NCBI GenBank assembly: GCA_902575715.1
Contig: CACGSI010000012.1
Coordinates: 1 to 30,664, forward strand
Length of the DNA stretch: 30,664 nt
From: an uncultured SAR324 cluster bacterium
GTDB lineage: Bacteria; SAR324; NAC60-12
Reading direction: 5' to 3'
Shown here: one piece after another, positions 2,869 through 23,395 of the stretch
Layout: each line of letters begins with the position of its first letter
Numbering within the stretch: the first letter of the stretch is position 1
Position numbers and translations under genes: made by a program
The notes under the pieces: generated by a model
The model's database searches: none
Told to the model about the DNA's origin: nothing
The model's input: the letters and a program-made list of their open reading frames with translations, nothing else

Positions 2869-3054
2869 CTATCCCTTTTTTAAAGTTATTCCAAACCAAA
2901 TTAACCAAATAGGTCCAAGTAAAATACCTCCCAGTCTAGAAGTAATGGAAATAAAAATTTGTTGATCAATAATATTTCCTATCGCAACAAAAATTCGACA
3001 GTCGGCAATTTTGAAAAAGTTTGTTTCAAATGCGCATTTTCTTGAGCCTTTTTT
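2869..3054 (-). pseudogene. C-terminal remnant of an unknown membrane protein
   Basis: Between endA and the hydroxylase gene an open minus-strand frame with no plausible start codon encodes a protein-like tail. It includes TNFFKIADCRIFVAIGN, then ISITSRLGGILLGPIWLIWF and GITLKKG before a TAG at 2869-2871. The last 30 residues look like one or two membrane helices with a Lys-rich end. The frame overlaps the 3' end of the hydroxylase gene out of frame. It may be the tail of a decayed or truncated membrane protein gene. I do not recognise the family, and chance cannot be excluded. Confidence 0.35.
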
Positions 3055-4012
3055 TCATATTTATTTTACTTTTTTTAGAACCATCAAAAAATGATCCGAA
3101 CAATTTGTCCCATGGTACGGATGGATCCCCATAATTGCATTCAAAGTAACGATGGTGGAGATAATGAAAATAAATATTAATATTTAATTTCATTTCTTTA
3201 TTTTTTACAAAAATTTTTTCATAACCACAATGTCCCCATGTAGGGGCAACACAGGCATGCATGATATGAAAAGAGGCATGAATTGGATGAGATGGAATGA
3301 TCCAATGGATAATTATTCCTGACAAGTAAATCAAGTGCTCAATCGGATGCATTGAAAGCCCCGACCACGGACCAGTGTTTGTATTCTTATGATGTAGATA
3401 GTGTGCAGAGTCGTAAAGAGGTGTCCAATGGGTTAGCCTATGTGTAAAATAGAAGTGATGTTGCCGGATATGAGGAATAATCAGGAACAAAATAATTATA
3501 TAAATTGGGGAATCAAACCATTCTAAAGGGAGTAATATATATCCATTTGCAAACATCCAGTAAGTAAAAGATTCATAAAGTGTCCAGATTCCACACCCAC
3601 TGACCAAGCCTAAAAACATGTTTTCTCGTGTCTGGTTATTAAATAAAAATCGGGGATCATTTTTTCTTAGCCCCTTTTTATCAAACTGAAACTGATCCCC
3701 CTGATCCTTTTTAATGTATAACCAAAAATGTACAGTACCTGTTACAAGTAAAAGTAACCCTACATTCCTAAAATAAAGAGCCAACATCCAATCCCAAGAA
3801 AATACTTTCATTTCAGTTAAGTTAGGCGTTAGAAAAAACCATACAAAAAGAGCAAGAGTAGCATGGAAAATTTGAATGGGAGAAAATAAGTAATTTTTTA
3901 ACCAAATTAATCCTTTTAAAGGCAAGAACGGCCAGTTATATAGAGAACGGTCTTGTTTGATCGTATCTGGTTTCCAATCAGATCCCTCTGAAATTTTTTG
4001 AGTAAAAAACAT
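3026..4012 (-). CDS. Fatty-acid hydroxylase / sterol desaturase superfamily membrane protein
   Basis: A 328-residue integral membrane di-iron enzyme of the fatty-acid hydroxylase superfamily, which hydroxylates or desaturates lipids with O2. Several hydrophobic segments precede and separate the eight-histidine signature: HFYFTHRLTH (HxxxH), HYLHHKNTN (HxxHH) and HYLHHRYFECNYG (HxxHH). The family profile ending NYGDPSVPWDKLFGSFFDG is intact. The start codon lies one base after the stop of the PanB-like gene, so the two are probably translationally coupled. It forms an operon with the PanB-like protein and the desaturase. The C-terminal tail is very Lys-rich (KKSKINMKKRLKKMRI). The substrate is unknown; a membrane lipid, carotenoid or hopanoid would all fit. 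Confidence 0.85.
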   Translation of the reverse strand: MFFTQKISEGSDWKPDTIKQDRSLYNWPFLPLKGLIWLKNYLFSPIQIFHATLALFVWFFLTPNLTEMKVFSWDWMLALYFRNVGLLLLVTGTVHFWLYIKKDQGDQFQFDKKGLRKNDPRFLFNNQTRENMFLGLVSGCGIWTLYESFTYWMFANGYILLPLEWFDSPIYIIILFLIIPHIRQHHFYFTHRLTHWTPLYDSAHYLHHKNTNTGPWSGLSMHPIEHLIYLSGIIIHWIIPSHPIHASFHIMHACVAPTWGHCGYEKIFVKNKEMKLNINIYFHYLHHRYFECNYGDPSVPWDKLFGSFFDGSKKSKINMKKRLKKMRI

Positions 4013-4013
4013 T

Positions 4014-4832
4014 TTAGTTTTCTAATTTCTTTAGGAATGATTCATACTCATTATCTTCAATTTTAGCGATTTCATTCTCAGAAGGATATTCTCCAACTGT
4101 TGATGAATGCTTAAATTTTTTTAATGCGGACAACCGCTCTTCTTTGATTAATTCTTTTAATTTAAAAATATTTCCAAAAGACCTTGCATGTTTTGGTGCC
4201 TTTTCATGTTCTCCACAAATATCTTCCATGAACAAATATATAACATCTCCACCTTGTCCTGATCCTAATGAAACAGTTACAAGTCCAGTTCTTTTGGATA
4301 TTTCCTCCATAACTAGATCTGGAATGACTTCTGCTTCAACAGAAAAAGCTCCAGCATCCTCAAGTCTTCGAAATTTTTGAAAGAGTTCAAAAGCTTCATC
4401 TGCAGTTTTTCCAACTGCTCTTACTCCGCCAACCCAACTACATTTTCTAGGAACAAGACCTAGATGACCCATAACAGGGATATCTTCATTTGCAAGTAAA
4501 CTGATTACAGATAAACTTCTAGCAGTCATAACAGCATCAGCTCCAGCAGAAAGAGCACGAAAAGCTGCTTTTAACATATCAGATTCTGTAGGGAATTCAG
4601 GTATCCCTAATGCTGCGGTCAAAAAAATTTCATCATTACCCTCACGAATCATTGCTACTTCTTTTGCAGCACACACAATCAAATCTATGTTTGCTTCACC
4701 ACAGGCATATGCTTCCTCGGCACTATTAACTTTTACTTGGGTTAATTTTGTCTTTCCTTTACTAGAAATTATATCTGCTACTGTTAAATTTCTTTTTGCC
4801 GGTTTAGCTAGCCAATTATAAATTCTTTTCAT
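4014..4832 (-). CDS. PanB-fold (ketopantoate hydroxymethyltransferase-like) protein with altered active site
   Basis: A 272-residue relative of 3-methyl-2-oxobutanoate hydroxymethyltransferase. Family landmarks are the N-terminal TVADIISSKGKTKLTQV, VMGHLGLVPRKCSWVGGVRA (120-139), GKTADEAFE, DAGAFSVEAEVIP and the PKHARSFGN tail with GEYPSENE. The ligands that define PanB are missing. The loop normally VGDSLGM reads VCAAKEVAM (no Asp45), the normal ADLPF region reads LGIPEF (no Asp84), and the Lys112/Glu114 segment reads AVMTARS. Only the late Glu (168, in EAEV) is kept. It is therefore unlikely to make ketopantoate and may act on another 2-oxo acid or be non-catalytic. It sits 17 bases after the desaturase and 1 base before the hydroxylase. 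Residue comparison is by eye against remembered E. coli PanB. Confidence 0.75.
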   Translation of the reverse strand: MKRIYNWLAKPAKRNLTVADIISSKGKTKLTQVKVNSAEEAYACGEANIDLIVCAAKEVAMIREGNDEIFLTAALGIPEFPTESDMLKAAFRALSAGADAVMTARSLSVISLLANEDIPVMGHLGLVPRKCSWVGGVRAVGKTADEAFELFQKFRRLEDAGAFSVEAEVIPDLVMEEISKRTGLVTVSLGSGQGGDVIYLFMEDICGEHEKAPKHARSFGNIFKLKELIKEERLSALKKFKHSSTVGEYPSENEIAKIEDNEYESFLKKLEN

Positions 4833-4849: not shown

Positions 4850-5887
4850 TTAACCAGTTTTTACACTAGACGGAACGGGTGTATCAAATTCATATTTTGG
4901 ATCTTTTAGTTGTTTTCTAAAAATATATCTCATCTCTTTCCAAGCCCCAAACAAGTTTTTTGGTTTTGGACATTCGTTGGAAATCAATCGATGCAATTTT
5001 TTTAGATTGTAACAAGGTACTGAAGTATACATATGGTGTTCGAGGTGCCAATTCATATTCCAGTATAAAAATTCAGTAAATGGGTCTATTGTTATGCTTC
5101 TTACGCATTTTCTATAGTCATTTGTGTCAGTTTTTAGTCCACAATGCTGAGGTGAAGAAGCAAAATAAAATAACCACCCCCCTATAAAGCGTGAACCTGA
5201 AATAATTAGTGCCAAAACAGGTTGATTTATCGCTAATGAAAAAAAAATTATAGATATATGAAAAATTAATACTGTTCTAGCCCAATTTACAGCTTTTGTC
5301 GCTATATCAGGCAATTCTGAATATAACCTAAAATCCCAATCCTGAAATGGATTACTCAAGTCTTTTAGAGAAATTTTTACAAAATTTTTAACAGTTGGTA
5401 ATATGCCCGCAGATTTCTCTCCTCCAGTAAAATTAATTGTGAACAACTGTATTAAGTAAAGAATGTGTAAAGAGGGAATTTTAGGGTGCACCTCTTCGTA
5501 ATCAATTCCATTATGGAGGGTATTTCTATGATGATAAGTATGACTTAATGAATAGGTTATTGGATCCAGCCAACCCAAAATACCATACACATTAAGAAAA
5601 ACTTTATTCAGTTTTCTAGTTTTGAAAACAGTATCATGGTGAAGTTCATGGTGAGCAGCATTAAAAAACCCACCAATCGTGCCCTGAATAAAGATAAATG
5701 CAGCAAATCCCAAAAAATCACTAGAAATAAAATAATAATAGCTTATAGTCCCTGCTCCAAACCACAAAGCCAGATGACCGAAAGTATATATAAAGCCTTT
5801 AAAATCATTTGGAGTAGATAGCTCCTTAAGGACTTTTTTATCTATTGGACACCTATACCATTTAACTATTTTAGAATCTTTTAACAT
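4850..5887 (-). CDS. Membrane fatty acid desaturase
   Basis: A 345-residue FA_desaturase family (PF00487-type) membrane di-iron enzyme that introduces double bonds or hydroxyls into acyl or similar chains. Three His boxes are visible: HHELHH at 79-84, HTYHH at 116-120 and HLEHH at 281-285, plus PQHCGL near 246. Hydrophobic segments lie at about 33-75, 95-112 and 203-245. The protein starts with ATG at 5887. It is the first gene of a three-gene minus-strand unit with the PanB-like protein (17-base gap) and the fatty-acid hydroxylase. The overall pattern resembles MocD/alkane-hydroxylase-like desaturases as well as acyl-lipid desaturases, so the substrate is open. Confidence 0.88.
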   Translation of the reverse strand: MLKDSKIVKWYRCPIDKKVLKELSTPNDFKGFIYTFGHLALWFGAGTISYYYFISSDFLGFAAFIFIQGTIGGFFNAAHHELHHDTVFKTRKLNKVFLNVYGILGWLDPITYSLSHTYHHRNTLHNGIDYEEVHPKIPSLHILYLIQLFTINFTGGEKSAGILPTVKNFVKISLKDLSNPFQDWDFRLYSELPDIATKAVNWARTVLIFHISIIFFSLAINQPVLALIISGSRFIGGWLFYFASSPQHCGLKTDTNDYRKCVRSITIDPFTEFLYWNMNWHLEHHMYTSVPCYNLKKLHRLISNECPKPKNLFGAWKEMRYIFRKQLKDPKYEFDTPVPSSVKTG

Positions 5888-14631: not shown

Positions 14632-16863
14632 TTAATCATCCAGTAAATATGGTTCATTGCTTTTTTTACCTACTAGTTCAATACAAAGATGATAAATTTC
14701 CCCACGAAATGCAAATGGAGCTTCGTATTCTTTAGAAACAGGACTGAGAGAATCTCTGCCAATATCCATTCCTGATAATGCAAGGAAAGAAAAAACTCTA
14801 GGAATTTTAAACCAAATACCTTTTAGATTATTAGAACCTAATCTTGCAGAGGCACTTTTATTTTCTTCGAGCCTGAATTCAAAAGTTATTTTATGGCATT
14901 TTTTTGTTAATTTGATTGAAGATTTTGTTTTTTGACCGCCAGCATTATATTCGTAATTTAAATTTCCGTTTTTCACAAAAATAACAAAACCTGATGTAGA
15001 ATCTCCGTAAGCTATTAATACACCATCATTTAGAGAATTAATTTCTGTTGTTATTAAGTATGAATGATGCCCTAAAGGTGGGGCTGTACTTGGTTCAATA
15101 TGAGATACTGGTGGATAATAATTAAACAAATTACGATTTCTTGGAGAACCTGGTGGTGGTGGGGCTTGGTACAACTCGACACTTCGGTCATCCAAAGGCA
15201 AAACATCATATCGCCCTGCTTCAGACCACCAAAGATCGTTTAAATCGTCAAGTATTTTCAATTCCTTTTTGGCTAAGTTGTTAGATTCAGAGAAATCATG
15301 CTCTAGGTTATATAACTCCCAATCATTTTTGCTATAACCAGTTCCAGGTTTATGATGAGTAACAGCTTTCCAACCATTCGACCAAATACCACGATTCCCA
15401 AACATTTCAAAATATTGTTTTGTGCGTTTAGTCTTTGCGTTTGAATCTGAAAATGTGTATGCCATACTGATTCCATGCATTGGCATTTGTTTCACACCTC
15501 TAAAATGCCTAGGAGGTTCTATCTCGCATATTTCGTAAATAGTAGGAGCGATATCTATTATATGATGAAACTGTTTAAGAATTTTTCCTTGGGTGCTCAG
15601 TTTTCCTGGCCAAGAAATAATAAGTGGATCTTTAATTCCTCCCCCATGCGTGTGGTATTTGTACCAGCGAAGAGGTGTATTCGATGCTTGAGCCCAACCT
15701 GTAGCGTAATGTCCATCTCCAAGAGGTCCTCCTATTTGGTCTAAAACTCGTGACATTTGAGCTGCATCCGGGGATAGATTATTAAAAAATTGAATGCGAT
15801 TTACAGTACCAAGCCGTCCTCCCTCCATAGCAGCACCATTGTCTGATAGTGCCATTATTAGTGTATCCTTTGTTTTCCCAACACGTTCTAAATAATTAAA
15901 TAGTTTACCTAGTGCGTGGTCAGTGTGTTCAACAAATGCAACATATGCTTCTTGAAGCCTAGCGGCTAATTTTTTTTCAGTAGAATCAAGTGAATTCCAT
16001 GGAGGTACATCTGGATTATTTGGTGGTAAAACTGTGTTCTGTGGAATAACTCCCATTTCAAGTTGCTTTTTGTAACGATTTTCCCGCACAACTTCCCAGC
16101 CAGAATCATAATTCCCTCTAACAGATTCTAGAAATTCATTCGGGGCTTGATGAGGCGCATGAGCTGCACCAAGAGGAAGATATAGAAAAAACGGATCATC
16201 TGGCCGGTGAGCAATATGATCAGAAATATACCTGGTGGATTGATCAATTAGGTCATCTGTCAAATGATACCCCTCCTCGGGTTTTTTTGGTGGTTCTACA
16301 GCATGATTATCACGAAATAATTCAGGGTAAAAATGATTGGTTGCTCCATTCATAAATCCATAAAATTGATTAAATCCTCTCCCTAATGGCCACTCGTCAA
16401 ATATTCCTGCAGGACTTGCATCCATCATTGGAGCGATATGCCATTTCCCAACTGCAAATGTGTTATAACCGGAGTCTCTTAAAACTTCCGAAAGTAAAGC
16501 AGCTTGTCTAGTAATTCTTCCTCTTCCACTAGGCCAACCTGAATCAACATTTGAAAGCATTCTCATTCCAACCGAGTGATGATTTCTGCCTGTCAAGAGG
16601 CATGCTCTAGAGGGTGAACATAAAGTTGTTGTATGGAAGTCGTTATAACGAATTCCAGATTCAGCTAACTTATCTAAGTTTGGAGTTCTAGCTTCTGATC
16701 CGTAGCATCCTAAATCTGCAAATCCAAGGTCATCAAATAAAATTAATACTATATTTGGTCCTTTTGCTTTTGATCGTGGGGGATACCATGGGACACTGTC
16801 CTCATGTGTAATACCCCTGACACTTCCAGTATCCCATTGTTCATCTATATCCCAATAATTCAT
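14632..16863 (-). CDS. Type I (formylglycine) sulfatase, arylsulfatase family
   Basis: A 743-residue sulfatase that hydrolyses sulfate esters using a formylglycine made from Cys82 in LCSPSRACLLTGRN (81-94), matching the C-x-P-S-R-x-x-x-L-T-G motif. Asp44 and Asp45 in ILFDDLGFAD bind Ca2+, with further metal ligands in LSDNGAAMEGG; AVGKWHIAP supplies the Lys and His of the active site. A C-terminal domain from about residue 600, including YLITTEINSLNDGVLIAYGD, resembles that of long AtsD-like arylsulfatases. No signal peptide is present (MNYWDIDEQW), so it probably acts in the cytoplasm on an imported substrate. It is the last gene of the binding protein-ATPase-permease operon, 21 bases after the permease, with AGGGAAA as Shine-Dalgarno. 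No anaerobic or aerobic maturase is in the window. Confidence 0.92.
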   Translation of the reverse strand: MNYWDIDEQWDTGSVRGITHEDSVPWYPPRSKAKGPNIVLILFDDLGFADLGCYGSEARTPNLDKLAESGIRYNDFHTTTLCSPSRACLLTGRNHHSVGMRMLSNVDSGWPSGRGRITRQAALLSEVLRDSGYNTFAVGKWHIAPMMDASPAGIFDEWPLGRGFNQFYGFMNGATNHFYPELFRDNHAVEPPKKPEEGYHLTDDLIDQSTRYISDHIAHRPDDPFFLYLPLGAAHAPHQAPNEFLESVRGNYDSGWEVVRENRYKKQLEMGVIPQNTVLPPNNPDVPPWNSLDSTEKKLAARLQEAYVAFVEHTDHALGKLFNYLERVGKTKDTLIMALSDNGAAMEGGRLGTVNRIQFFNNLSPDAAQMSRVLDQIGGPLGDGHYATGWAQASNTPLRWYKYHTHGGGIKDPLIISWPGKLSTQGKILKQFHHIIDIAPTIYEICEIEPPRHFRGVKQMPMHGISMAYTFSDSNAKTKRTKQYFEMFGNRGIWSNGWKAVTHHKPGTGYSKNDWELYNLEHDFSESNNLAKKELKILDDLNDLWWSEAGRYDVLPLDDRSVELYQAPPPPGSPRNRNLFNYYPPVSHIEPSTAPPLGHHSYLITTEINSLNDGVLIAYGDSTSGFVIFVKNGNLNYEYNAGGQKTKSSIKLTKKCHKITFEFRLEENKSASARLGSNNLKGIWFKIPRVFSFLALSGMDIGRDSLSPVSKEYEAPFAFRGEIYHLCIELVGKKSNEPYLLDD

Positions 16864-16884: not shown

Positions 16885-17652
16885 TTAATAATTACCTAGT
16901 TTAGTAAGGTACCTAGAGATTATAGTCCTACCAAATAGTTTCCATAGTCTATCACAAATAAAACCAAGCCCCCCAAAACATATTATGCCAACAAAAATAA
17001 AATCTGTACGAAAGAAAGTTCTAGCGTTCCAAATTAAAAATCCAATCCCTTCCTGGGCGGCAAGAGCTTCTGCAGCTACAATAACCAAAAAAGCATTAGC
17101 TAATGCTAGACGCATACCTACGAAAATAGATGGTAATGTGGCTGGAAGAATAATCTTTAAAAAAAGATCAAAGTGATTAGCACCTAATGACTTTGCACCG
17201 TTTAACTTATCACTATCAATTGACGATGCACCAGATGCTGTTGTTACAAGAGTAACAAATCCAACTGCGAATGCAATTAAGTTTACTTTTGCTAATTCAC
17301 CAACTCCAAACCATAAAATAAATAAAGAAACAAGAGCCAACGCTGGTACAAAGCGAAAGAAATGAATAAACGGATCGAGGGCAGCGCGAGCTGCTAAAGA
17401 TGTCCCCGCAAACAGTCCAAGCGGAACGGCAATTGATGAACCTAATAACCAACCAGAAAAAACTCTAGTTAGGCTAATTTTTATAGCATCCCATAGCATA
17501 CCAGATTGGGCCAGTTCAATTAGTGCTCCTACGACCTTAATAGGTCCAGGTAATAAAATTGGATGCATTCCTTTAGCTGCAAAGTGCCATATTAAAAAGA
17601 CAATACAAACTGAAGAAAAACCTATAAAAAAATTTTTTAAAATTTTTCTCAT
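16885..17652 (-). CDS. ABC transporter permease, SsuC/TauC type
   Basis: A 255-residue inner-membrane permease with about six helices. The EAA-type coupling segment reads KLNGAKSLGANHFDLFLKII followed by LPATLPSIFVGMRLALANAF. VIVAAEALAAQEGIGFLIWN near the end is typical of the family. Its start overlaps the ATPase stop by four bases (ATGA), so translation is coupled. It is followed after 21 bases by the sulfatase gene. Confidence 0.92.
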   Translation of the reverse strand: MRKILKNFFIGFSSVCIVFLIWHFAAKGMHPILLPGPIKVVGALIELAQSGMLWDAIKISLTRVFSGWLLGSSIAVPLGLFAGTSLAARAALDPFIHFFRFVPALALVSLFILWFGVGELAKVNLIAFAVGFVTLVTTASGASSIDSDKLNGAKSLGANHFDLFLKIILPATLPSIFVGMRLALANAFLVIVAAEALAAQEGIGFLIWNARTFFRTDFIFVGIICFGGLGFICDRLWKLFGRTIISRYLTKLGNY

Positions 17653-18479
17653 ATGCCCCTAAGTTTATTTACCTCATCTATAATCTCATCCTCTATAATT
17701 TTAGCAATTTTAGAAAATTCTAATGAATACTCATCTCTGGGGTAAGGTAAATTTATTTCATGAATGTTTAGAAATCCAGATTTAGGTCCTGCTTTCATTA
17801 CTCCAACCCGTTCAGCCAATATTACGGCCTCTCTGATATCATGGGTGACATAAATGTAAGTTCCTCCTTTTGACATCCATAAATCAGATACCTGTCTCTG
17901 CAACAATCTACGACTTTGCGCGTCTAAGGCTGCAAATGGCTCATCGAGTAACACAACTTGGGGATTAACTGCTAAAATCCTGGCAATCTGAACCCTTTGT
18001 TTCATTCCTCCAGAAAGTTCGTGAGGTAACTTTTCAGCTGCGGACTCTAAACCAACTGTTTCAAGCCAATAATCAACAACTTTTGAATCAAATGGAATTT
18101 TGCGGTTCCTTGATTGAAACTTCAATCCAAATGCAATATTTTGTCTAACATTCAGCCACTCAAGCAAAGGACCATCTACATTTTGGAATACCATCGCCCG
18201 ATCAGGGCCGGGAGCATTAACAATATTTCTGTTAACTCTGACTTCTCCCGACGATGGCTTTAAAAAACCAGCAACAAGGCGTAAAAGAGTTGTTTTTCCA
18301 CAACCAGACGGACCCACAATCACAAAAAAATTGTTTGGTTTTACAGTGATGCTTAAATCTTGAATTACATATTCAGATTCTCTAGTATTTCCATACTTTA
18401 ATCCTATTTCCCTAAATTCAACTTCACTTCCTTCTGCTTTTATTTTTTGTTCATTATTACTAGATAAGTTCAAGACCAT
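17649..18479 (-). CDS. ABC transporter ATP-binding protein, SsuB/TauB type
   Basis: A 276-residue ATPase. Walker A GPSGCGKTT is at 56-64, the signature LSGGMKQR starts at 155, Walker B VVLLDE is at 175-180, and the switch His is H213 (YVTHD). The Q-loop lies in AMVFQNVDGPLLEWLNV (96-112), where the TauB-type Q-loop is extended by a few residues. It starts 5 bases after the binding-protein stop and overlaps the permease start by 4 bases, so it belongs to the same operon as the sulfatase. The substrate is probably a small organic anion, possibly an organosulfate (inference from the sulfatase). Confidence 0.92.
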   Translation of the reverse strand: MVLNLSSNNEQKIKAEGSEVEFREIGLKYGNTRESEYVIQDLSITVKPNNFFVIVGPSGCGKTTLLRLVAGFLKPSSGEVRVNRNIVNAPGPDRAMVFQNVDGPLLEWLNVRQNIAFGLKFQSRNRKIPFDSKVVDYWLETVGLESAAEKLPHELSGGMKQRVQIARILAVNPQVVLLDEPFAALDAQSRRLLQRQVSDLWMSKGGTYIYVTHDIREAVILAERVGVMKAGPKSGFLNIHEINLPYPRDEYSLEFSKIAKIIEDEIIDEVNKLRGI

Positions 18480-18484
18480 AAATT

Positions 18485-19471
18485 TTACAAATTTGCAGTA
18501 ATTGAACCAGGGACAGCTTTTTTCATAGCTCTCAAATCGAGAAAATTCCTAATATTGAAATCACTAGGTAATTTGCCCGAATCTATCAGAAATTGGGCAA
18601 TTGAATCAAATGAATTTAGCATTACTGGTGTGAATGCCATTCCATATCTCTGGCCTTGAATAAGTGCTTTGAAAACTTTAGAGTTCCCCTTATTACTTTT
18701 TGCTATAATTTCAGCTGAGCCATTAGGGTCTGCTTGAATTACTTTGCTAGCCTTATCATATGATCTTAGAATTGATTCTAAAAGTTTTTGATTTTTATTA
18801 ACCCAATCTGTTTTAGCAACAAGATAAATAGCAACAGTATCAAGAACCTTTGAATCATTCATAACTATTTTATGTGAACTACTATCTTTTATTTGATTTA
18901 CAGCATTTGCCCAAATCCACGAAGCTTGAATCTCATCTGCTAGAAGAGCACCAACAAGCTCAAATAATCCCGGTAATGGAACCAAGTCTACATCATTTAA
19001 GTTTACACCGTTTTGGATAAGATGCTGTAAAGTTACAAAATGCTCTGAAGTCCCTTTCACGTAGCCAATTTTTTTCCCACGTAAATCTTTTGCATCGTTC
19101 AAATCATTTCTCATAGCTAACTTATGCCAACCAGGCTTAGGTGCTGCTATTCCGGCAACCACCTTCATATTTTCTTTTGCAGATGCTGCAAGATTTAATA
19201 CAGCAAAATCAAGTGCTGGCCCAATATCTGCGGCACCCGCTATTACTGCCTGAATTGCCTCAATTCCAGTACCATATTGTTGAAAACTAGCCTCAATTCC
19301 TTCTTCAGCAAAAAAACCTTTATTAATTGAAATCCACATTTGTGAACCTAAAAGAAATCCATCAGCAGCAAAATTTACCTTACGAGCATTAACTAGGCTA
19401 GGGATTGAAATTAATAGTGCTGATATTCCAAGGAAAAAATAAATTTTAAATAATTTTACAAAATTAATCAT
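18485..19471 (-). CDS. ABC substrate-binding protein, NMT1/SsuA-like
   Basis: A 328-residue periplasmic binding protein of the NMT1/SsuA family, first gene of the sulfatase operon. A Sec signal peptide covers about residues 1-29 (hydrophobic stretch, then PSLVNARK). The mature part starts VNFAADGFLLGSQMWISINK, then GFFAEEGIEASFQQYGTG, the usual family start (ligand-facing N-terminal lobe); DLRGKKIGYVKGTSEHFV is the hinge-side loop. Length is typical. No lipobox is seen. The ligand is unknown, but operon membership with a cytoplasmic sulfatase suggests a sulfate ester or sulfonate. Confidence 0.88.
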   Translation of the reverse strand: MINFVKLFKIYFFLGISALLISIPSLVNARKVNFAADGFLLGSQMWISINKGFFAEEGIEASFQQYGTGIEAIQAVIAGAADIGPALDFAVLNLAASAKENMKVVAGIAAPKPGWHKLAMRNDLNDAKDLRGKKIGYVKGTSEHFVTLQHLIQNGVNLNDVDLVPLPGLFELVGALLADEIQASWIWANAVNQIKDSSSHKIVMNDSKVLDTVAIYLVAKTDWVNKNQKLLESILRSYDKASKVIQADPNGSAEIIAKSNKGNSKVFKALIQGQRYGMAFTPVMLNSFDSIAQFLIDSGKLPSDFNIRNFLDLRAMKKAVPGSITANL

Positions 19472-22132: not shown

Positions 22133-22507
22133 TTACTCAGTTGGTCCCCCAAACTTTTTCCAATTATTAAAACTTCCTAGATTCAATACTTCCTTGTAAC
22201 CCATCTCTAAAAGAGTTTTTCCTGCTAATGCAGCTTGTCCGCCTGCACCACAGTATAAAATCACTTTTTTCTTTGGAGAAATTTCATCAATCCCCATATC
22301 ATGTTCTTGGTCAGCATAAAACTCAAGCAATCCTCTTTCAGCATGAATAGCCCCTTTTATTTTACCACTATCAATAACTGAGTTTTTATCTCTTACATCA
22401 ACAAAAACTGTATCTGGATCATCAATCCACTTGATGGCTTCAGAAGGTTCAACCATTGGTACTTTTTCAAATGCTTCATCTAACATATTCTTTACTGTTT
22501 TAGTCAT
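22133..22507 (-). CDS. Single-domain rhodanese-like sulfurtransferase
   Basis: A 124-residue cytoplasmic rhodanese domain protein that can carry a persulfide on its catalytic Cys86 in YCGAGGQAALAG. The loop after the Cys (GAGGQ) holds a persulfide or phosphate-like group. The usual VDVRD motif is at 36-40 and AIHAERGLLEF at 53-63 corresponds to the GHIPGA segment. There is no signal peptide. The Shine-Dalgarno AAAAGGAC precedes the ATG. It lies downstream of the selenoprotein gene on the same strand, but about 250 bases separate them, so co-transcription is uncertain. The physiological sulfur acceptor is unknown. Confidence 0.88.
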   Translation of the reverse strand: MTKTVKNMLDEAFEKVPMVEPSEAIKWIDDPDTVFVDVRDKNSVIDSGKIKGAIHAERGLLEFYADQEHDMGIDEISPKKKVILYCGAGGQAALAGKTLLEMGYKEVLNLGSFNNWKKFGGPTE

Positions 22508-22758: not shown

Positions 22759-22974
22759 TCACAGCAAATCTTTAATATCCTCAAAAGAGAAAAATGATCC
22801 ATCACCAACGCATGGACCACCCTTCTTTATACTATTTTCACCATAGAAAAGCTCAAATTGACCATTTTCACCCTCTTCTATAGTGGTATAGAATCCTGCA
22901 CTATTCATTTCAACAGAAAGCCTTTCTGCTTGTTGTTTATAGTTTCAGGCTACGCAGTATCTTATTTTATACAT
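22759..22974 (-). CDS. SelW-like selenoprotein (Rdx family, CxxU), UGA at codon 10 read as selenocysteine
   Basis: A 71-residue thioredoxin-like protein: MYKIRYCVAU then NYKQQAERLSVEMNSAGF and, later, GGPCVGDGSFFSFEDIKDLL. U is an in-frame TGA (22947-22945). The start YCxxU-x-Y-x-x-x-A-x-x-L followed by an E-rich strand and a G-x-F-x-F pair matches the SelW/SelT/SelH (Rdx) family, whose CxxU or CxxC motif takes part in thiol redox chemistry. AAGGA lies 5 bases before the ATG. The frame is protein-like on both sides of the TGA and stops at TGA 22761-22759, with UAG next in frame. A SECIS-like hairpin follows the UGA. Conventional ORF finding misses it because it is split. It is transcribed in the same direction as the tmRNA, which lies 46 bases upstream. 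The alternative is a pseudogene with a nonsense mutation at exactly the family's catalytic Sec position, which is less likely. Confidence 0.85.
22911..22932 (-). promoter_or_regulatory. Candidate bacterial SECIS element
   Basis: Starting 12 bases after the UGA, a stem of eight pairs with one bulged A forms: CAAGCAGAA pairs with TTCTGTTG. The five-base apical loop is AGGCT, with G at its second position, and begins 22 bases after the UGA. Bacterial SECIS hairpins read by SelB usually lie within about 16-37 bases of the UGA and have a G near the start of the loop. The fold was drawn by hand. Confidence 0.7.
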
Positions 22975-23019
22975 TTTTATCCTTTGTAGGTTGTTCATTA
23001 AAGGCAATAATATTAGGTG

Positions 23020-23395
23020 TGGTGGAGGTGGCGGGATTCGAACCCGCGTCTTACTTAGTTTCCAATTGGGTTTCTACAAGTTTAGTTAGAACTTTTCTTT
23101 TTCTTCAGAAGTTTTGGCATCTAACTTCCTCATTCTGAAATACCTCCTAAAATCTCGCTACTGCCATGGAGGATTGCATTAGCCAAGCCTGACTTAGATG
23201 ACATCTTTCGTCACGTTTCAGGCAAACACAACGAAAGACGCCTACCTCAATTATGCCGCAAGAGCGACAGGGGCAGGAGAATAGTCAGCGTTGTTTGCAG
23301 CTAACATATTAATGATCGTTTTTACGTGACCCCGATCATTACCCACGACTTGCTTCCCTTATTTTCCACTAGCAATCGAATTCCATGACACCCCC
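23020..23395 (-). ncRNA. ssrA: tmRNA (one-piece), trans-translation
   Basis: A 376-base RNA that rescues stalled ribosomes. The 5' end GGGGGTG (23395-23389) pairs with 3' CACCTCC, followed by A and an encoded CCA (23022-23020). The T-arm has GGGTTCGAATCCC. The tag frame at 23298-23251 reads ANNADYSPAPVALAA then TAA. The usual tag ends with two Ala, as here. Both halves are contiguous on one strand, so the gene is not a permuted two-piece tmRNA as in most alphaproteobacteria. The upstream promoter overlaps the sucC terminator. The resume codon is taken as GCA by analogy. Confidence 0.95.

Follow-up and report, generated by a model that had tools for sequence, protein, structure and literature searches.

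Does a short reading frame that is interrupted by an in-frame UGA encode a selenoprotein, and is that UGA read as selenocysteine (Sec)? The question is raised by a locus on the minus strand of a 30,664-nucleotide (nt) stretch of DNA from an uncultured SAR324 cluster bacterium (GenBank assembly GCA_902575715.1, contig CACGSI010000012.1), which in its full length is called the window below. The initial annotation, made from the letters alone, had proposed a hidden SelW-like selenoprotein gene at this place. We conclude, with a probability of roughly 0.96, that this locus of a marine SAR324 bacterium holds an intact gene for a SelW-like selenoprotein; a TGA conserved among relatives and a covarying hairpin behind it bear out what had been recognised from raw sequence. 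The elements of the gene start are as follows.

22759..22974, minus strand: SelW-like selenoprotein gene, 71 codons plus stop, predicted Sec (UGA) at codon 10 (translation, Rdx and SelTWH matches, nearest relative L082, AlphaFold2 model)
22945..22947, minus strand: in-frame UGA, predicted Sec codon of YCVAU (TGA at the same column in 23 of 23 relatives)
22980..22985, minus strand: AAAGGA, Shine-Dalgarno-like, 5 nt before the ATG (sequence)

Translation confirmed the 71-codon frame with its ATG and its sole internal TGA, which lies at codon 10 in the context YCVAU-NY. The protein read from 22974 to 22759 is MYKIRYCVAUNYKQQAERLSVEMNSAGFYTTIEEGENGQFELFYGENSIKKGGPCVGDGSFFSFEDIKDLL; the terminal codon of the frame is also TGA, and the next in-frame codon is TAG. 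The Shine-Dalgarno sequence that had been proposed corresponds to the AAAGGA at 22985-22980, a Shine-Dalgarno-like stretch. The Rdx pattern described past the UGA was found in part: U-x-Y-x-x-x-A-x-x-L is present, while the supposed GxFxF is actually GQFELF (GxFxxF). An alternative in-frame ATG is located at 22998, 8 codons upstream, and P0002, a full-length database protein, begins at the equivalent codon. We favour the ATG at 22974 because in the nearest relative (L082) the extension is interrupted by a stop 5 codons ahead of the shared Met, and no start codon lies in between. A loose scan of the window stretches outside the listed genes gave 10 read-through frames, this one included, and the frame alone is therefore not significant. 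The evidence beyond chance is homology, the conserved TGA and the covarying hairpin.

To find homologues, we searched 52 genomes that belong to the same phylum as the SAR324 metagenome-assembled genome (MAG) G001, with an E-value cut-off of 0.1. Matches were detected in 23 genomes, each with exactly one TGA inside. The initial annotation had predicted Cys or Sec at the codon-10 column, and all 23 loci carry TGA at the same YCxxU position, followed by N-Y in 22 cases and by G-Y in one. The nearest relative, L082 in genome G025, shares 75% identity with the window protein along its whole length (E 9.2e-33), and its TGA falls at the same codon. We aligned the window protein with P0002 and 14 of the 23 loci (alignment A1, 16 rows); identity to the window protein is 26-33% among 13 aligned SAR324-phylum loci. 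Scans of genome contigs and of viral contigs with the selW protein found no relative.

Comparison with L082 also speaks to coding constraint. Over codons 11-71, 31 codons are identical, 16 differ synonymously and 14 nonsynonymously, with a nonsynonymous rate (dN) of 0.114 and a synonymous rate (dS) of 0.845 (NG86), and for codons 1-9 dN is 0.148 and dS 1.46. A pseudogene or a sequencing error at codon 10 would leave neither a dN well below dS behind the UGA nor a TGA at one and the same place in 23 separate genomes of the phylum. No point in favour of such damage was found, and we consider it refuted by the 23 relatives, with a probability next to nil.

Could the UGA be an ordinary stop, ending a 9-codon leader that is followed by a separate protein of 49 amino acids (aa) from the ATG at codon 23? 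Databases do hold such proteins: the protein search returned six 49-aa stubs (P0003-P0008) annotated from codon 23, after the UGA. Moreover, codons 11-22 show 3 nonsynonymous and 1 synonymous change against L082, too few alone to demonstrate selection on protein. Against an ordinary stop, the TGA is kept in 23 of 23 relatives, 8 of codons 11-22 are identical to L082, and a covarying hairpin follows the UGA. In addition, the 22 relatives outside the subfamily have no Met at codon 23, yet their motif spans the UGA. An ordinary stop is thus very unlikely. The claim that standard gene calling gives no protein here was nearly right: besides the stubs, the databases contain one full-length cluster of 114 members, represented by P0002, which is 89% identical to the window protein and has W at codon 10 (protein search).

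The W entries raise the possibility that UGA has been reassigned to tryptophan in the window organism. The search with A1 matched 522 proteins; in the 119 of these that were listed and new to the set, scored by a simple motif without alignment, the codon-10 column held W in 107, C in 3 and no clear motif in 9. The full-length database entries thus do show W, P0002 among them. However, UGA otherwise acts as a stop in the window: TGA closes 7 of its 24 genes, and Trp is encoded by 145 TGG codons. An internal TGA occurs in none of the 24 genes; this is in part a consequence of how they were listed, with TGA counted as a stop. Several genes also span the full length of their families; in isocitrate dehydrogenase, for instance, residues 2-744 cover positions 2-741 of a 744-position profile. 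Finally, the W entries appear to read the terminal TGA as W too, a mark of gene calls under genetic code 4. Since P0002 ends in LLW where the window has TGA followed by TAG, W in the database proteins is most likely a TGA read under code 4. We dropped reassignment to tryptophan as extremely unlikely, given window genes that end in TGA and conserved genes of full length. Separately, we observed for P0002, P0009 and similar entries that metagenome gene callers seem to apply code 4 to short contigs of these bacteria; in such calls Sec is written as W and the terminal TGA is read past.

Behind the UGA we identified a candidate bacterial selenocysteine insertion sequence (SECIS).

22912..22930, minus strand: bacterial SECIS hairpin with an 8-base-pair (bp) stem and apical loop GGC (fold, covariation, synonymous resampling)

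Counted from the U of UGA, nucleotides 18-25 pair with nucleotides 29-36, and nucleotides 26-28 form the loop of 3 nt. All 24 genes have G as the first loop base, and in all 24 the second is G or T. After removal of L090 and L091, which are identical to L083 over 48 nt, 22 distinct sequences of the 24 remained in the SECIS alignment. Here 167 of 176 stem cells are paired (94.9%); all 8 stem places are paired in 15 of the 22 sequences, and at least 7 in 20. When the entire hairpin was moved by -14 to +12, no more than 115 cells paired, and sliding the 3′ arm gave at most 43.8% pairing. Both sides of a pair had changed in 20 cells, compared with 5.6 in shuffles, and the covariation score was 0.483 compared with 0.190; neither value was reached in 500 shuffles. 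Because related sequences can exceed the shuffle expectation, we added synonymous-codon resampling within each gene, a procedure that leaves relatedness in too. None of 5000 resamplings reached 167 paired cells (maximum 141), and pairs that join two third codon positions were kept in 61 of 66 cells, compared with a mean of 31. As quoted in PMC13188914, the bacterial SECIS model allows a loop of 3-9 nt, a stem of 4-16 bp, G in the first two loop positions, a spacing of 16-37 nt and a minimum free energy (MFE) of at most -7.5. With a loop of 3 nt, a stem of 8 bp, G first, a spacing of 22 nt and an MFE of -8.2, the window hairpin lies within every one of these constraints.

These results argue that the UGA of the window gene is very probably decoded as selenocysteine. 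SelB carrying Sec-tRNA-Sec would bind the mRNA hairpin, and the UGA would then be decoded as selenocysteine. The predicted product is a thioredoxin-like (Rdx) protein of 71 residues, in which the loop that links strand 1 to helix 1 would carry Cys7 and Sec10 as C-x-x-U. It probably functions as a small thiol/selenol redox protein.

The SelW-like identity is supported by the CxxU motif, the predicted fold and matches to SelW-related chains in the PDB. The AlphaFold2 model (predicted local distance difference test, pLDDT, 91.6) shows a thioredoxin-like b-a-b-b-b-a fold, and its best PDB matches are SelW-related chains; Cys7 and Sec10 lie in the loop between strand E2-7 and helix H13-25. Of the 16 aligned members, 15 match Rdx at E ≤0.01, and a search with the A1 profile retrieves PDB chains of SelW-related proteins. 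TIGR02174 scored 17.9 bits (cut-off 34.2), and the equivalog NF041051 (SelTWH_Campy) 31.1 bits (cut-off 88); we do not assign the protein to this equivalog.

The selenocysteine machinery was examined in the same 52 genomes. As searches for tRNA-Sec, selB and selD ring widely below cut-off in control genomes, we ignored such matches and counted only those over the curated cut-offs. We detected selA in 43, selB in 48 and selD in 44 genomes. A clear tRNA-Sec was present in 41; the tool tally was 42, and the genome left out, G035, has an over-cut-off match of 86 nt and 47.3 bits that we took for a tRNA-Ser. The initial annotation had made its proposal depend on selA, selB, selC and selD; run on relatives, this comparison found that 30 of the 52 genomes searched carry selA, selB, selD and tRNA-Sec together. 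The complete set occurs in 9 of the 23 genomes with selW, and at least three of the four components in 21 of them, with two in G001 and one in G018. G025, the source of L082, has selB, selD and tRNA-Sec. Genome completeness was not given, and the absence of a sel gene from a single genome was left uninterpreted. By extension from these relatives, the window organism would make selenocysteine. As a separate observation, among the 44 genomes of the SAR324 phylum with an over-cut-off selD match, 42 have exactly one in-frame TGA inside that match (L108-L111 and others). SelD itself is thus probably a selenoprotein in this phylum, the Sec position of its TGA being putative.

Several observations weigh against an intact selenoprotein gene. 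Only L082 is a close relative; the other 22 loci have E-values of 2.4e-4 to 0.098, and the evidence for their kinship is the shared motif together with the alignment. The family matches of the window protein fall below the cut-offs, with 20.3 bits for Pfam Rdx (E 6e-4, cut-off 22.6) and an E of 2e-7 for NCBIfam SelTWH, below its curated cut-off. No Foldseek match of the model reaches E 0.001, the best being 1.6e-3. Taken by itself, the window hairpin has no unusual stability (z -0.75), and 22% of codon-shuffled sequences are at least as stable. In 8 of 24 genes the best fold differs from the exact 8-bp stem. Because single-sequence folding leaves the hairpin unremarkable, comparison across genes was needed, and the case for the hairpin rests on it. 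Even there one weaker measure, the number of pairs with changes on both sides, was 5 compared with 2.6 in shuffles and was matched by 12 of 500. In codons 11-22, where 8 codons are identical to L082 and 4 changed, dS is low (dN 0.132, dS 0.245); this agrees with a possible RNA constraint, on very few changes. Finally, no selA match was found in the 1.5 Mb assembly of G025.

The gene has two close neighbours on its strand, both of which we treat as neighbours only.

23020..23395, minus strand: transfer-messenger RNA (tmRNA) gene ssrA, 45 nt upstream of the selW ATG (ARAGORN, Rfam)
22133..22507, minus strand: rhodanese-like protein with an ordinary Cys (LYCGAGG), downstream of selW (Pfam Rhodanese, E 3e-16)

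The rhodanese-like neighbour scores 37.5 bits with the rhodanese_LYCAU (seleno)protein model, whose cut-off is 115. The shared strand and the 45-nt gap would fit a functional tie in which tmRNA rescues ribosomes stalled at the UGA when selenium is scarce. However, none of 30 ssrA loci of relatives has selW within up to 1.5 kb on each side, with some loci cut by contig ends; a tmRNA scored over the cut-off in 35 genomes, of which these loci cover 30. In G025, ssrA is on contig C6 and selW on C65. A loose YCxxU pattern near ssrA in L136 and L145 is a chance occurrence, as further stops follow, and not selW. We therefore dropped the functional tie as exceedingly improbable; with selW near none of the 30 loci, the adjacency to tmRNA is probably a local accident.

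The selW neighbourhood was viewed in 11 of the 23 loci, with Pfam on L083 and by eye on the rest. In 7 of the 11, selW stands in the order cytidylyltransferase-like, FtsK_4TM-like, selW, ribosomal S21 and PspA, away from ssrA, and in G025 its flanking genes encode an ABC1-kinase-like protein and a TPR protein. For the window as a whole, which is SAR324-like, the isocitrate dehydrogenase has its best match, among the best 80, in the SAR324 cluster MAG L001 (66%), which shares with the window the order of the ClC channel, isocitrate dehydrogenase, malate dehydrogenase and succinate/malate-CoA ligase genes. G025 is closer to the window than L001, with the same tmRNA tag peptide, a sucC of 72% and a neighbouring 89-aa protein that is 95.5% identical.

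Elsewhere in the window, 4014-4832 encodes a weak PanB-like protein (88.6 bits, cut-off 272). It is flanked by genes at 3026-4012 and 4850-5887 that look desaturase- or hydroxylase-like by their His motifs and have no NCBIfam match at 1e-10. A 743-aa arylsulfatase-like protein (111 bits, below cut-off) is encoded at 14632-16863, near an SsuA-like binding protein gene (18485-19471) and apparent permease and ATPase genes (16885-18479, by eye).

The locus adds to SAR324 a selenoprotein gene missed by standard annotation, and genes for Sec decoding occur widely across the phylum. Full-text literature that links SAR324 with selenoprotein, selenocysteine or selenium includes PMC5029168, a 2016 survey in which two SAR324 single-cell genomes appear under 'orphan SelD', a label for genomes that have SelD but no other components of the selenium trait and no selenoprotein genes. 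Because 30 of 52 genomes have selA, selB, selD and tRNA-Sec together, that label likely reflects the incompleteness of those two single-cell genomes.

The closest known systems are the SelW-like proteins of two marine surveys, those of other members of the SAR324 phylum, and the solved SelW-related proteins 2fa8, 2p0g, 2oka, 2obk, 2ojl and 3dex and mouse SelW (2npb). 2fa8 has Cys in place of the predicted Sec of the window protein, and the solved bacterial chains have 103-108 residues compared with 71 here. In the marine surveys, SelW-like ranks highest in abundance among the selenoprotein families of the Sargasso Sea, with 48 sequences and 7 Cys homologs (PMC1088965), and stands first among the families listed for Global Ocean Sampling, with 427 sequences and 56 Cys homologs (PMC2398784). 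These are likewise small CxxU redox proteins with a bacterial SECIS just past the UGA, a likeness drawn from their description. The SelW-like proteins of the SAR324 phylum (L081, L083-L103) share YCxxU, the SECIS position and the family with the window protein, which lacks their FSKxxxxRFP and carries IKKGGPCVGDGSFFS there. In the C-terminal half, the window and G025 genes read IKKGGPCxxDGSFFS where the others have FSKxxxxRFP, and G025 gave a single selW match in its 1.5 Mb assembly. We suggest, tentatively and with less than even confidence, that within one branch of SAR324 these two genes form a SelW subfamily of their own, always with selenium, which would have replaced the canonical SelW of relatives and so would probably serve a different partner. 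Compared with known SelW-like genes, the window gene is ordinary in kind and modestly new in its divergent C-terminal half.
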